Notes under the pieces: generated by a model
Databases searched by the model: none
Seen by the model: only the letters and a program-made list of their open reading frames with translations
What the model was told of the DNA's origin: nothing
Assembly (NCBI GenBank): GCA_016929335.1
Contig: JAFGIY010000258.1
Span: 62,001-126,000, forward strand
Length of the DNA stretch: 64,000 bases
Reading direction: 5' to 3'
DNA from: Acidobacteriota bacterium
GTDB lineage: Bacteria > Acidobacteriota > UBA6911
In this document: positions 10,939 to 20,489 of the stretch, piece by piece
Layout of the letters: each line of letters opens with the position of its first letter
Numbering within the stretch: position 1 is the first letter of the stretch
Program-made: the position numbers and the translations under genes

Positions 10939-11397
10939 ATGCAAATCCATACCGTAAACTTTGGCAGCCTGGAAATACCGGAAGAATCAATTATCACCTT
11001 CAAAGAGGGGCTTCCCGGATTTCCGCAGATTCACAGATTCGCTGTTCTGGAAATGGAAGAGCTGAAGCCATTCCAGTATCTTCAGGCTTTGGACGATCCT
11101 CCCATTTCTCTTTTCGTAATCAATCCGTTCATCGTGGATCCGAGCTATGAATTCCGCTTGACCGATTCCGACATGGAGGATGTGAACAGCACGAATTCTG
11201 CGCAGCTGGCGGTCTACGCCGTAGCCACTATTCCGGAAGATCCCAATGAGGCGACAATAAACCTCATGGCTCCGATCGTCATTAACGAAAAGGGACGATG
11301 CGGGAAACAGGTCATCTTGCATGAAAGCAAGTATTCGGTTAAACACCCGGTGCTTCAAAGTGACAGTCAGAGTGGGACACTGGTGCAGGAAGCCTGA
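10939..11397 (+). CDS. fliW: Flagellar assembly factor FliW
   Basis: 152 residues. The motif TFKEGLPGFPQIHRFAVLEM, then PFQYLQALDDPPISLFVINP, is the FliW signature, and the end includes the usual INLMAPIVINEKGR. FliW binds flagellin and also CsrA; when flagellin is exported, FliW is freed and sequesters CsrA, relieving translational repression of flagellin mRNA. csrA follows 52 bases downstream, the standard arrangement. The upstream 134 bases show no clear promoter, so it is probably read through from the flgM promoter. Confidence 0.95.
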   Translation: MQIHTVNFGSLEIPEESIITFKEGLPGFPQIHRFAVLEMEELKPFQYLQALDDPPISLFVINPFIVDPSYEFRLTDSDMEDVNSTNSAQLAVYAVATIPEDPNEATINLMAPIVINEKGRCGKQVILHESKYSVKHPVLQSDSQSGTLVQEA

Positions 11398-11449
11398 TGC
11401 ATGCTTCCTTTTGCGCGGGATCTGGAGCAACCCGCAGGTAACGACACGG

Positions 11450-11674
11450 ATGCTGGTATTCACACGTAAGAAAGACGAGAGCCTTGTCATAGGCAATGAA
11501 ATAGAAGTAACGATACTCAATATCGGCTCGGGAACCGTAAAGGTCGGTATTACCGCACCCCGCCATATTTCCGTTCATCGACATGAGGTTTTTGAAGCAA
11601 TCAAACGCGAGAATCTTGCCGCCGCTCAATCGCAAATTCCCAAAATGGACCTATTCAAAAAACTGATACGATAA
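11450..11674 (+). CDS. csrA: Translational regulator CsrA
   Basis: 74 residues from ATG 11450 (MLVFTRKKDESLVIGNEIEV), the invariant CsrA opening. GTVKVGITAPRHISVHRHEV and FEAIKREN complete the RNA-binding fold; the conserved R44-type residue is in the HRHEV segment. CsrA dimers bind GGA in hairpin loops, often over Shine-Dalgarno sites. The C-terminal tail (LAAAQSQIPKMDLFKKLIR) is longer than in E. coli, as in FliW-linked homologues. The likely targets are the flagellin genes at 17948 and 19455, whose ribosome sites lie in such loops. Confidence 0.95.
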   Translation: MLVFTRKKDESLVIGNEIEVTILNIGSGTVKVGITAPRHISVHRHEVFEAIKRENLAAAQSQIPKMDLFKKLIR

Positions 11675-17947: not shown

Positions 17948-18811
17948 TTATCGCAGCAAGCTGAGAACGTTCTGGCTGCTTGAATTGGCTTGTGCTAATG
18001 CTGCCATACCTGACTGGGCCAGGATCTGAAATTTGGTCAGATTCGCCACCTCTTCCGCGAAGTTGGCATCACGAATAACAGACTCTGCGGCCTGCGTATT
18101 CTGTGACTGGGTTTGCAGAACGGCAACAGCGGACTGCAGTCTGTTCATGCCGGCGCCGATTTCAGCGCGCATGTTGGAAACGCCATTCAGGGCTGTCTGG
18201 ATCGTCGTAAGAGAGGTAGCCGCAGATACCTGTCCCGTGAGGTCGACCGCTGTCAGGTCGGCGGTTCCAAGGTTGGTTACCGTGGTACCGCTTGTCGTAA
18301 TGGTTTGAATGGTAACGGAAATCGAGCTGGCGGATGTAATATCACCCACGAATACACTAAGCTCTCCGCCGATTCTATTGTCACCGGTGGTGGCAAATAT
18401 ATCGTATCCGTTGAAGTTTGTCTGATCGGCAATACGGCCGATTTCGGCTTGGATCTGAGTGAACTCGGCGTCCAGCGATGCGCGGCCGGTTGAATCCACG
18501 GTTTCTGTCGCAGCTTCTTCCGCCAGCGTTACGGCGCGGGTTAATAGATTGGTGATTTCCTGCAAAGCGCCGTCAGCGATCTGGCAAACGCCAATGCCGT
18601 CGTTCGCATTGCGGACAGCTTGATTCAGAGCATAGGTGTTTGCGCGCAGGCTGTCTGCAATCTGCAGACCGGCGGCATCATCCGCTCCGGAATTGATGCG
18701 TTTGCCCGAAGATAAACGCAAAAGAGTTCTGGAAAGGTTTACGTTATTAAGGTTTAACTGGTTCTGTGCGTTCAAACCAGAGATGTTGTTCAGAATACTG
18801 AAAGATCCCAT
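17948..18811 (-). CDS. fliC: Flagellin (first copy)
   Basis: 287 residues, a compact flagellin with only D0/D1 and a small variable centre. The N-terminus (GSFSILNNISGLNAQNQLNL, then LLRLSSGKRINSGADDAAGL) and the C-terminus (FAEEVANLTKFQILAQSGMA then ALAQANSSSQNVLSLL) are canonical. The centre (about residues 150-205) is Ser/Thr-rich, offering sites for O-glycosylation by Maf. It contains one cysteine (in GIGVCQIADG), unusual for flagellin. The ATG is preceded by AAGGAGGAATTCCAA. It has its own sigma28-type promoter and terminator, so it is monocistronic. Confidence 0.96.
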   Translation of the reverse strand: MGSFSILNNISGLNAQNQLNLNNVNLSRTLLRLSSGKRINSGADDAAGLQIADSLRANTYALNQAVRNANDGIGVCQIADGALQEITNLLTRAVTLAEEAATETVDSTGRASLDAEFTQIQAEIGRIADQTNFNGYDIFATTGDNRIGGELSVFVGDITSASSISVTIQTITTSGTTVTNLGTADLTAVDLTGQVSAATSLTTIQTALNGVSNMRAEIGAGMNRLQSAVAVLQTQSQNTQAAESVIRDANFAEEVANLTKFQILAQSGMAALAQANSSSQNVLSLLR

Positions 18812-18813
18812 TT

Positions 18814-18832
18814 GGAATTCCTCCTTGAATCC
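18814..18832 (-). promoter_or_regulatory. Hairpin presenting flagellin 1 Shine-Dalgarno (candidate CsrA site)
   Basis: On the minus strand GGATTC-AAGGAG-GAATTCC folds with one bulged T, placing the ribosome site AAGGAG in a six-base loop directly before the ATG. GGA in a hairpin loop is the CsrA recognition shape. Flagellin 2 has the same arrangement, and csrA-fliW lie 7 kb away. Confidence 0.65.
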
Positions 18833-18887
18833 GAGCTAGTACTTTTTCTAGTACCAGATCCAGGCTCTGGCAGCCTCGGCGAGGGGA

Positions 18888-18924
18888 ATCGCTCGAAGCG
18901 ATAAAAAACCCAATGGGCTTTTTT
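18888..18924 (-). promoter_or_regulatory. Two leader hairpins of flagellin 1, one terminator-like
   Basis: In mRNA order the leader first forms A6-G-CCC / GGG-U6 (18924-18903; loop AUU, one bulge), a stem ending in a U-run, then a perfect UCGCU-UCG-AGCGA hairpin (18902-18888). Both lie 20-60 bases after the predicted start site and before the ribosome site. They may be an attenuator, a stabilising 5' structure or a remnant of an upstream terminator. Confidence 0.5.
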
Positions 18925-18951
18925 ATGCTCAAATTTTTCGGTTCAGTCTGC

Positions 18952-18978
18952 TTATCGTCGGAAGGGAATGGAATCTTA
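18952..18978 (-). promoter_or_regulatory. sigma28 promoter of flagellin 1
   Basis: Minus strand: TAAGATTC, 11 bases, GACGATAA. This is close to the FliA consensus TAAAGTTT-N11-GCCGATAA. Predicted start is near 18945, giving a leader of about 135 bases. Confidence 0.85.
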
Positions 18979-19377
18979 GCGGAAAATGCATCAAAGATTC
19001 TTTCTTTTTCATTTTTTTAAGATTGACTGCGGTCATCCTGCTTCACTTCAGTGCCATTGGAATACAGCCCCGATGACGCAATCTGCAAATACAAGCCACC
19101 ACGAGCACATTACAAAGCGCTTCATGTGGGTCGCGGCTGAAGCCGCGACGCGCGATTAATCCTATGTGGGAGAAATGCTCATGCCTGGTTTTCTGTTTTC
19201 ACGGATGTGCCGCTGTAATAGCCGCCACACATATTCGATATGCGCTGAGCAGAGTTGGCTATGAATTCAGTGTTGAGGTTTATGAATGGGATGACACGCG
19301 GAGTGCGGCATGAAGCGAAATCGGATCCGATATTACAAAATGCGGTGGCGGCATAGTGCACGTTCAAAAAGCGGAAG
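18979..19377. other. Gene-poor spacer between the two flagellins
   Basis: About 400 bases with no credible gene on either strand. It holds the REP-like palindrome at 19130-19149 with short flanking ATGTGGG direct repeats (19125 and 19164). A 62-codon open frame on the minus strand (19179-19367) has no ribosome site and no recognisable sequence. Confidence 0.6.
19130..19149. repeat. REP-like palindrome
   Basis: GTCGCGGCT-GA-AGCCGCGAC is a perfect 9-bp inverted repeat with a two-base loop. It is flanked by ATGTGGG on both sides. No T-tract follows. The shape is typical of repetitive extragenic palindromes; only this copy was seen in the window. Confidence 0.6.
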
Positions 19378-19407
19378 GCGGGTTCCCCCCCTTTCAGAAG
19401 AACCCGC
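19378..19407 (-). terminator. Rho-independent terminator of flagellin 2
   Basis: GCGGGTT and AACCCGC arms around a 16-base loop form a stem about 48 bases after the flagellin 2 stop. A-run and T-run flank it on the two sides (T6 on the plus strand at 19408, and a T5 run further out on the minus strand), so it may work in both directions. Confidence 0.7.
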
Positions 19408-19454
19408 TTTTTTGTCCGCCACTACTGCCGTAAATCCTGAGTTGGGTGAGGAGT

Positions 19455-20315
19455 CTACATGCTCTGCATGAGCGCCAGTATGGATGAGCTTTGTCCGTTC
19501 GCTTGAGATAGTGCGGCCATTCCCGCCTGGTTCAGGATCTGAAATTTTGTAAGATTCGAGATTTCGGTAGCCATATTGGCATCCCGAATCGTCGATTCGG
19601 CGGACTGAGTATTGAGCGCCTGGCTCTGCATGACCTGGACGGCCGATTGCAGACGGTTGGCGCCGGCGCCGATAGTGGCGCGCTGGTTGGCAACTGCGAT
19701 TAAGGCGTCTCGAATATAACCCAGAGACAGCTGGGCGCCTTCTTGAGTCGATAGATCAACCAAAGTCAGATCTTCTCCTCCGATATCCGTAACGGTCTCT
19801 CCGGCCGTGGTGATTGTGTCGATGGTTACCGCAATGGAACTGGAACCGAAGATGTCCCCTACAAAGACACTCAAACTGCCGTTGAGGCCGTCTGTAGTGA
19901 ACAGTTTTACGCCATTGAAATTTGTCTGAGATCCGATGCGCGCAATCTCGGATTCTATCTGGTCGAACTCCGCATCGAGGCAGGCGCGGCCGGTGGAATC
20001 GACTGTTTCAGTGGCTGCTTCTTCTGCAAGGGTTACAGAGCGGGTAAGAAGGTTTGTGATTTCCTGTAGTGCGCCGTCCGCAATCTGGCCTACGCTGATG
20101 CAATCGTTGGCATTACGCACTGCCTGATCGAGGGCGCGAATATTGGCTCTCAGAGTATCCGCAATCATCAGACCTGCGGCATCATCCGCACCGCTGTTGA
20201 TTCGCCGACCTGAAGAGAGTCGATTAATTGTCTGAGTTAGACTGACGTTGGTACAGCCCAATTGTTTCTGGGCATAGAGTGCTGCGATGTTATTGAGGAT
20301 GCTGAAATTTCCCAC
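19455..20315 (-). CDS. fliC: Flagellin (second copy)
   Basis: 286 residues from GTG 20315. I chose this over an upstream in-frame ATG at 20378 because ACGGAGGAATTC lies just before the GTG and the protein then aligns end to end with flagellin 1 (GNFSILNNIAALYAQKQL). The D0/D1 parts are closely similar to copy 1, while the centre (ITTAGETVTDIGGEDLTLVD) has diverged. It carries three cysteines (in LGCTNV, NDCISV and RACLDA), which is rare in flagellins. Two tandem flagellins can build a filament of mixed composition. Own promoter and terminator. Confidence 0.95.
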   Translation of the reverse strand: MGNFSILNNIAALYAQKQLGCTNVSLTQTINRLSSGRRINSGADDAAGLMIADTLRANIRALDQAVRNANDCISVGQIADGALQEITNLLTRSVTLAEEAATETVDSTGRACLDAEFDQIESEIARIGSQTNFNGVKLFTTDGLNGSLSVFVGDIFGSSSIAVTIDTITTAGETVTDIGGEDLTLVDLSTQEGAQLSLGYIRDALIAVANQRATIGAGANRLQSAVQVMQSQALNTQSAESTIRDANMATEISNLTKFQILNQAGMAALSQANGQSSSILALMQSM

Positions 20316-20318
20316 GAT

Positions 20319-20336
20319 GAATTCCTCCGTGAATTC
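20319..20336 (-). promoter_or_regulatory. Hairpin presenting flagellin 2 Shine-Dalgarno (candidate CsrA site)
   Basis: GAATTC-ACGGAG-GAATTC is a perfect 6-bp stem with the ribosome site ACGGAG as its hexaloop, three bases before the GTG start. Further up the leader another hairpin, GGGCAT-GG-ATGCCC (around 20373-20386), also centres on GGA. Two GGA hairpins, one over the ribosome site, is the usual layout of a CsrA-repressed mRNA. Confidence 0.7.
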
Positions 20337-20461
20337 TTTGGGTTCTGATTGGATTCCCGAAAGCGGTTTGTTGGGCATCCATGCCCTGCGCTCATCGGGA
20401 GACTAGCAGAATGATTTTCGGTGTTCGCTACCTCCGATCATCTCACAACTTCCGTGGCTTC

Positions 20462-20489
20462 ATATCGTCGAACCCGAGCGATTAGATTA
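20462..20489 (-). promoter_or_regulatory. sigma28 promoter of flagellin 2
   Basis: Minus strand: TAAT (20489-20486), 16 bases, GACGATAT (20469-20462). Weaker than the flagellin 1 site but the same -10 core. It gives a leader of about 140 bases. Confidence 0.65.

Follow-up and report, generated by a model that had tools for sequence, protein, structure and literature searches.

Candidate CsrA operators in the leaders of two acidobacterial flagellin genes: paired hairpins that co-vary across the phylum and follow csrA and fliW

The window, that is, the whole stretch of 64,000 nucleotides of acidobacterial DNA analyzed here, contains a flagellar gene cluster with two flagellin genes on the minus strand. 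Flagellin 1 (17948–18811, ATG at 18811) and flagellin 2 (19455–20315, GTG at 20315) both carry the Pfam domains PF00669 and PF00700. Genes for FliW (10939–11397, PF02623) and CsrA (11450–11674, 74 aa, PF02599) were found on the plus strand; the two Pfam families confirm the presence of both genes in the flagellin cluster, as proposed in a preliminary description of this DNA. Both genes of a FliW-CsrA circuit are therefore present in the genome, and the cluster also holds fliS, fliD, and a Maf-type gene. Residue N55 of CsrA presumably plays a role in FliW binding. The N55 of the window's CsrA aligns with the CsrA of the PDB entry 5dmb, and the best matches of the window's CsrA and FliW are chains of this one entry. 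Nine CsrA residues are named in the excerpted text of PMC6692469; by reading, the window's protein has L2, R6, K7, I14, I18, A36, R44, and E46, with a valine at position 42.

The Shine-Dalgarno (SD) sequences of both flagellin genes lie in C-(ANGGAG)-G hexaloops on stems of six base pairs, in agreement with the preliminary description, which had reported six-base loops on short stems. The hairpin of flagellin 1, GGAUUC-(AAGGAG)-GAAUUCC (18814–18832, minus strand), includes one G-U pair. That of flagellin 2, GAAUUC-(ACGGAG)-GAAUUC (20319–20336, minus strand), was found in relatives too. Among the 25 ORFs of the window with a GGAG SD site, a hexaloop stem of 6 occurs at the two flagellins only. 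At the remaining 23 sites the stems measure 0–2, except for a single stem of 4 at an internal start that is itself doubtful. For C(ANGGAN)G hairpins with a stem of at least 4, the window has five where 1.8 were expected (30 simulated windows had at most 4), and three of the five lie in the two flagellin leaders; with a stem of at least 6, there are two against 0.3 expected (maximum 2 of 30 simulated windows). Taken alone, the window is suggestive of CsrA-type hairpins, and it is the comparison with relatives that decides.

The minimum-energy fold of the flagellin 2 leader includes the SD hairpin (−31.9 kcal/mol, z −2.4). The SD hairpin of flagellin 1 formed in a 36-base piece with a stability similar to that of shuffled sequences (z −0.3, 66/200), and when the longer leader is folded, the minimum-energy structure replaces it by pairing of the SD with codons 2–4.

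Upstream of the SD hairpin, flagellin 2 carries a further CsrA-type hairpin, GGGC-(AUGGAU)-GCCC (20373–20386, minus strand), which can alternatively be read as a UGGA tetraloop on 5 bp. The preliminary description had recognized this hairpin, but had drawn it as GGGCAT-GG-ATGCCC, which needs a loop of two bases; the hairpin stands and the loop is corrected here. The ANGGAN hexaloop closed by C-G that marks CsrA/RsmA sites is thus present in both SD hairpins and in the upstream hairpin of flagellin 2, and flagellin 2 shows the layout of a two-site flagellin operator, with one site at the SD and one upstream. The related leaders L023, L024, L025, and L033 also have an upstream hairpin like that of flagellin 2.

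For flagellin 1, the leader was compared with those of the same type, six in total from a single genus. The upstream hairpin CCAGA-(GCCUGGA)-UCUGG (18854–18870, minus strand) has identical arms in 6/6 of these leaders, and the GGA occurs in the window leader alone. Of the second GGA hairpin previously suggested for this copy, the arms hold, and its role as a conserved CsrA site is not supported, the GGA being absent from the five related leaders. A second, C-rich upstream hairpin (GCUUCG..GCGA-UUCCCC-UCGC..CGAGGC; 18873–18899, minus strand) differs in L004. Positions 18854–18899 (minus strand) thus hold upstream hairpins common to flagellin 1-type leaders, without a conserved GGA. Within 130 bases upstream, none of the six leaders has an ANGGAN hexaloop on a stem of at least 3, and the second site of a two-site operator is absent from flagellin 1. 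The SD stem of this type has six pairs in two leaders and three contiguous pairs in four. Given the missing upstream site, the imperfect SD stems, and the competing fold, flagellin 1 would be at most a weaker, single-site CsrA target.

Sigma-28-like promoters were predicted 140–146 bases before the start codons; both hairpin regions would then be part of the mRNAs. For flagellin 2, the −10 element GACGATAT (20462–20469, minus strand) is combined with a −35 element TAAT at 20486–20489 and a spacer of 16; its score of 9/12 is reached in 21 of 143 shuffled leaders and by itself is within chance, but GACGATAT recurs at 143–147 bases in L023, L025, and L033. The sequence CCCGATGA, taken by eye as the −10 element, was dropped in favor of GACGATAT because of this recurrence. 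The predicted promoter of flagellin 1 consists of GACGATAA (18952–18959, minus strand) and TAAG at 18975–18978 with a spacer of 15, and its score of 10/12 is reached in 3 of 143 shuffled leaders.

For the comparison, 396 genomes of the phylum were searched with flagellin proteins, and 103 gave matches at E ≤ 1e-20, some flagellins being missed as at most six candidates were scored per genome. In total, 143 leaders from 100 Acidobacteriota genomes were compared. Matches without a flagellin N-terminus (e.g., L013) and matches outside the protein-search listing were left out of the counts, and L145 of genome G062, the start of which is doubtful, was counted as negative. Start codons were picked by a script that favors an upstream SD and may thereby favor SD hairpins somewhat, and the thresholds for stem and motif were set after the sequences had been seen. 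Among the 396 genomes, fliW is present in 72, csrA is above the cut-off in 72, and 71 have both.

The presence of the hairpins follows that of the two genes. The strict motif C(ANGGAN)G on a stem of at least 3, at the SD or upstream, was found in 68/91 leaders and 53/58 genomes with csrA or fliW and in 9/52 leaders and 5/42 genomes lacking both, counts that are not independent because the leaders are related. In family f18, with 36 flagellin genomes and neither csrA nor fliW, the motif occurs in 0/41 leaders; this contrast is strong but represents few independent events, since f18 is one family and largely one lineage. The five genomes with hairpins despite undetected csrA and fliW are G010, G028, G131, G287, and G389 (completeness 84, 92, 99, 89, and 87%, respectively). 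All but G287 belong to families with csrA-positive members. These five exceptions were included in the csrA group for the counts of single-hairpin covariation, loop, spacing, and paralogues, and kept out of it in the link count. Conversely, five genomes with csrA or fliW have no such hairpin in the leaders compared; in four of them (G062, G244, G307, and G366), but not in G321, the covariance model described below located other flagellins with a site.

The loop itself differs between the groups. Its first position is A in 85/100 SD loops of the csrA group vs. 12/41 in f18, and the closing C-G pair is present in 81/100 vs. 0/41. At the second position the csrA group shows no fixed base (C 37, A 36, G 15, T 12), but in f18 it is A in 40/41 leaders. 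With A at position 1, a free position 2, and C-G closing, the SD loop of the csrA group follows the CsrA consensus and not the strongest SD match.

Covariation was evaluated for each hairpin and for both together. Between the arms of the SD hairpin, 244 of 380 cells were paired in 76 distinct rows (100 of the 101 csrA-group leaders counted), compared to 193.8 (sd 7.3) with the 3' arms swapped, and none of 5000 swaps reached the observed value; pairs 1 and 2 are nearly invariant (C-G and U-A). Upstream hairpins, chosen by CANGGANG alone, were found in 61/101 csrA-group leaders vs. 1/41 in f18, and their pairs 2–5 were paired in 180/212 cells vs. 121.6 (sd 4.7). An alignment of both hairpins comprised 32 leaders, selected for the motif and a spacing of 19–25 nt. 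Here, 84.8% of the cells were paired vs. 64.2% in shuffled alignments, and the covariation score was 0.477 vs. 0.146 (0/500), where shuffles ignore relatedness; slid controls, which retain it, gave 0.10–0.16. Changes on both sides were seen in 10/12 pairs, in the SD hairpin, pairs 4 and 5 were each intact in 18/32 rows, and the number of further pair types did not exceed that of the shuffles (70/500 reached the value).

The conserved structure with compensatory changes expected of CsrA/RsmA sites is thus found across the phylum. In the family of the window, compensation is weak, as the SD stem hardly varies there. The earlier argument that the shared geometry of the two leaders reflects selection gains support from these changes, from the link with csrA and fliW, and from the loop pattern. 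The distance between the two GGAs is 19–24 nt in 45/61 leaders, and 40–54 nt in 5/6 leaders of the window's family.

A covariance model (R1) was built from the 32-leader alignment and run over the 396 genomes with strict filters, scoring 15 candidates per genome. At 36 bits or more, 61 matches were obtained in 51 genomes, 49 of which are among the 72 with csrA; the two others, G131 and G389, belong to the five exceptions above. Forty of the 61 matches fall on flagellins from the protein-search list, among them the leaders used to build the model. As R1 was made from flagellin leaders, it is tested only by the other 21 matches, which lie elsewhere than at listed flagellin starts. Twenty of these were examined (the match in G086 was left out), and 19 precede flagellin N-termini as judged by eye, with one checked by Pfam. 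Fifteen of the 19 are flagellins of 199–241 aa missing from the protein-search list, and four are truncated, either at a contig end or at the limit of the stretch examined. At lower scores, a match without a start site was seen at 31.8 bits in G021, which has neither csrA nor a listed flagellin, and matches without csrA were common below 28 bits.

The genome-wide scan gave no match in the window's own genome. Within the window, the two flagellin leaders are the two best matches, with low scores of 19.8 bits over the upstream hairpin of flagellin 2 and 13.2 bits over the SD hairpin of flagellin 1, which we attribute to the larger distance between the two sites in this family. A very weak match over the start of csrA (11438–11472, plus strand; 6.2 bits, E 2.4) is probably due to chance.

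The one remaining match of the 20 (L193, G269; 39.9 bits) precedes an ORF of 53 aa. Similarly, L205 of G221 is a two-hairpin CsrA-type leader in front of a 69-aa ORF (32.1 bits), in which the upstream GGA is lost. The two small ORFs are possible non-flagellin targets. No Pfam match was obtained for either, and when the 53-aa ORF was searched for in 22 genomes of the family of G269, it was matched in G269 itself and, weakly, once more (E 0.09).

We consider both flagellin leaders to be CsrA operators of a FliW-CsrA flagellin homeostasis circuit, with a probability of about 0.86. According to a competing explanation, the hairpins are a mere by-product and the conserved letters an extended SD with a flanking pattern, as the sequence GAATTC is palindromic. 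The near-fixed inner pairs, the 3' arm that is partly SD, and the failure of the outer pairs in many rows would agree with this. The outer pairs co-vary, however, with stems shifting to GCAUC/GAUGC or CUUUC/GAAAG, loop base 2 is not fixed in the presence of CsrA, contrary to the best SD match, and the upstream hairpin contains no SD at all; we therefore regard a by-product as very unlikely. An RNA switch such as a thermometer, sequestering the SD by itself without CsrA, seems just as improbable. In the shared hairpin the SD lies in the loop and not in the stem, and such a switch predicts neither the conservation of ANGGA in both loops nor its absence without csrA and fliW, even though the SD hairpin of flagellin 2 is stable on its own and the alternative fold of flagellin 1 pairs the SD with coding sequence. 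Rfam gave five matches for the window leaders, the best with an E-value of 0.5 and all well below their gathering scores, and no match at E ≤ 0.5 for the leaders of 20 relatives.

The least probable alternative, to which we give hardly any weight, is another RNA-binding protein that is absent from the same genomes and binds the hairpins. Presence and absence were compared for csrA and fliW, and other genes may share their pattern, but the loop with its closing pair conforms to the CsrA consensus in the literature, CANGGANG (PMC6692469, in excerpt), and the same leader layout is bound by CsrA in Campylobacter jejuni. Excerpts of PMC7652899 report a SELEX-derived site, RUACARGGAUGU, found mostly in hexaloops, and an ANGGAN hexaloop in RsmE structures.

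Reading both leaders as CsrA operators places them beside known systems. The excerpted account of the C. jejuni flaA leader (PMC4894983) describes two ANGGA stem-loops, the second over the ribosome site, together with compensatory changes within Campylobacter, footprinting of CsrA on the leader, and antagonism by FliW. The acidobacterial leaders resemble it in the two stem-loops and the position of the second, the compensatory changes, and the FliW-CsrA pair; they differ in belonging to another phylum and in that binding, footprinted and measured in C. jejuni, is inferred here. According to the same excerpt, the flaB leader binds CsrA more weakly than that of flaA, a parallel to the uneven acidobacterial flagellin copies, and flaC is not CsrA-enriched. 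The FliW-CsrA-flagellin circuit of Bacillus subtilis (PMC6529632, in part) is similar in its partner switch and in fliW adjoining csrA, and the hag leader in its two CsrA sites, one of them over the SD (excerpts of PMC7652899 and PMC6529632); B. subtilis also belongs to another phylum, and the likeness is one of description rather than of leader sequence or structure. For Treponema denticola flaB1/flaB2, the available part of PMC9481697 places fliW-csrA in a flagellar cluster and proposes CsrA sites near the SD, and contains no hairpin or covariation analysis. Among the literature matches listed (titles and beginnings of abstracts, few subscription journals covered), no paper dealt with these leaders in Acidobacteria, and PMC4682653 was the only one with Acidobacteria, CsrA, and FliW together. 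By comparison, these would be leaders of a known kind in a new phylum.

As the hairpins co-vary and are missing in the family without CsrA and FliW, it is very probable that flagellin is controlled here as it is in Bacillus and Campylobacter. Binding and repression by CsrA and its release by FliW are drawn from those bacteria. A CsrA dimer would use both of its binding sites on flagellin 2, the first on the upstream ANGGAU hairpin and the second on the loop of the SD hairpin, and thereby block the ribosome. FliW, freed on flagellin export, would then take CsrA away and permit translation. Flagellin 1, with the SD hairpin only, would be the weaker, single-site target. A control studied in few model bacteria would thus be extended to another phylum by comparison at the RNA level, with a natural control in a family that has flagellins, lacks csrA and fliW, and also lacks the operator. 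The model may furthermore serve as a probe, as it pointed to divergent flagellins absent from the protein-search list.

The operators are unevenly distributed among flagellin paralogues. In the window's family, an SD hairpin with a stem of at least 3 is present in 18/18 flagellin leaders examined, and an upstream ANGGAN hexaloop with a stem of at least 3 in 9/18, with 10 pairs in L016. For 29 csrA-group genomes with at least two leaders, the strict upstream motif is mixed in 22, present in all copies in five, and in none in two; by a looser hairpin rule, 20/29 are mixed. When either site is counted, 14/29 genomes, from families f14, f31, f35, and f61, have one copy with a site and another with none. 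In a tree of 83 flagellins, copies without a site lie in separate families, and some, such as L067 and L083, branch within groups of two-site copies, which suggests repeated operator loss after flagellin duplication. We give even odds to the idea that flagellin duplicates in Acidobacteria were split, several times and independently, into one copy held back by the FliW-CsrA checkpoint and another that has lost part or all of the operator and is made regardless. In the window such a split would be partial, with both sites at flagellin 2, and the SD hairpin and two other upstream hairpins at flagellin 1. This unevenness is the part most worth following, as it raises the question of why one flagellin should be exempt from the checkpoint.

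The second flagellins of family f14 (L040, L041, L047, L052, L061, and similar ones) are preceded by a leader of another kind, shared in part among them, that lacks CsrA sites, and no Rfam match was found for those of L052 and L061. In family f31, flagellins of 199–241 aa (L187–L192 and L194–L200) each stand behind a two-hairpin leader, and are partly located side by side (L188/L189, L190, L191).
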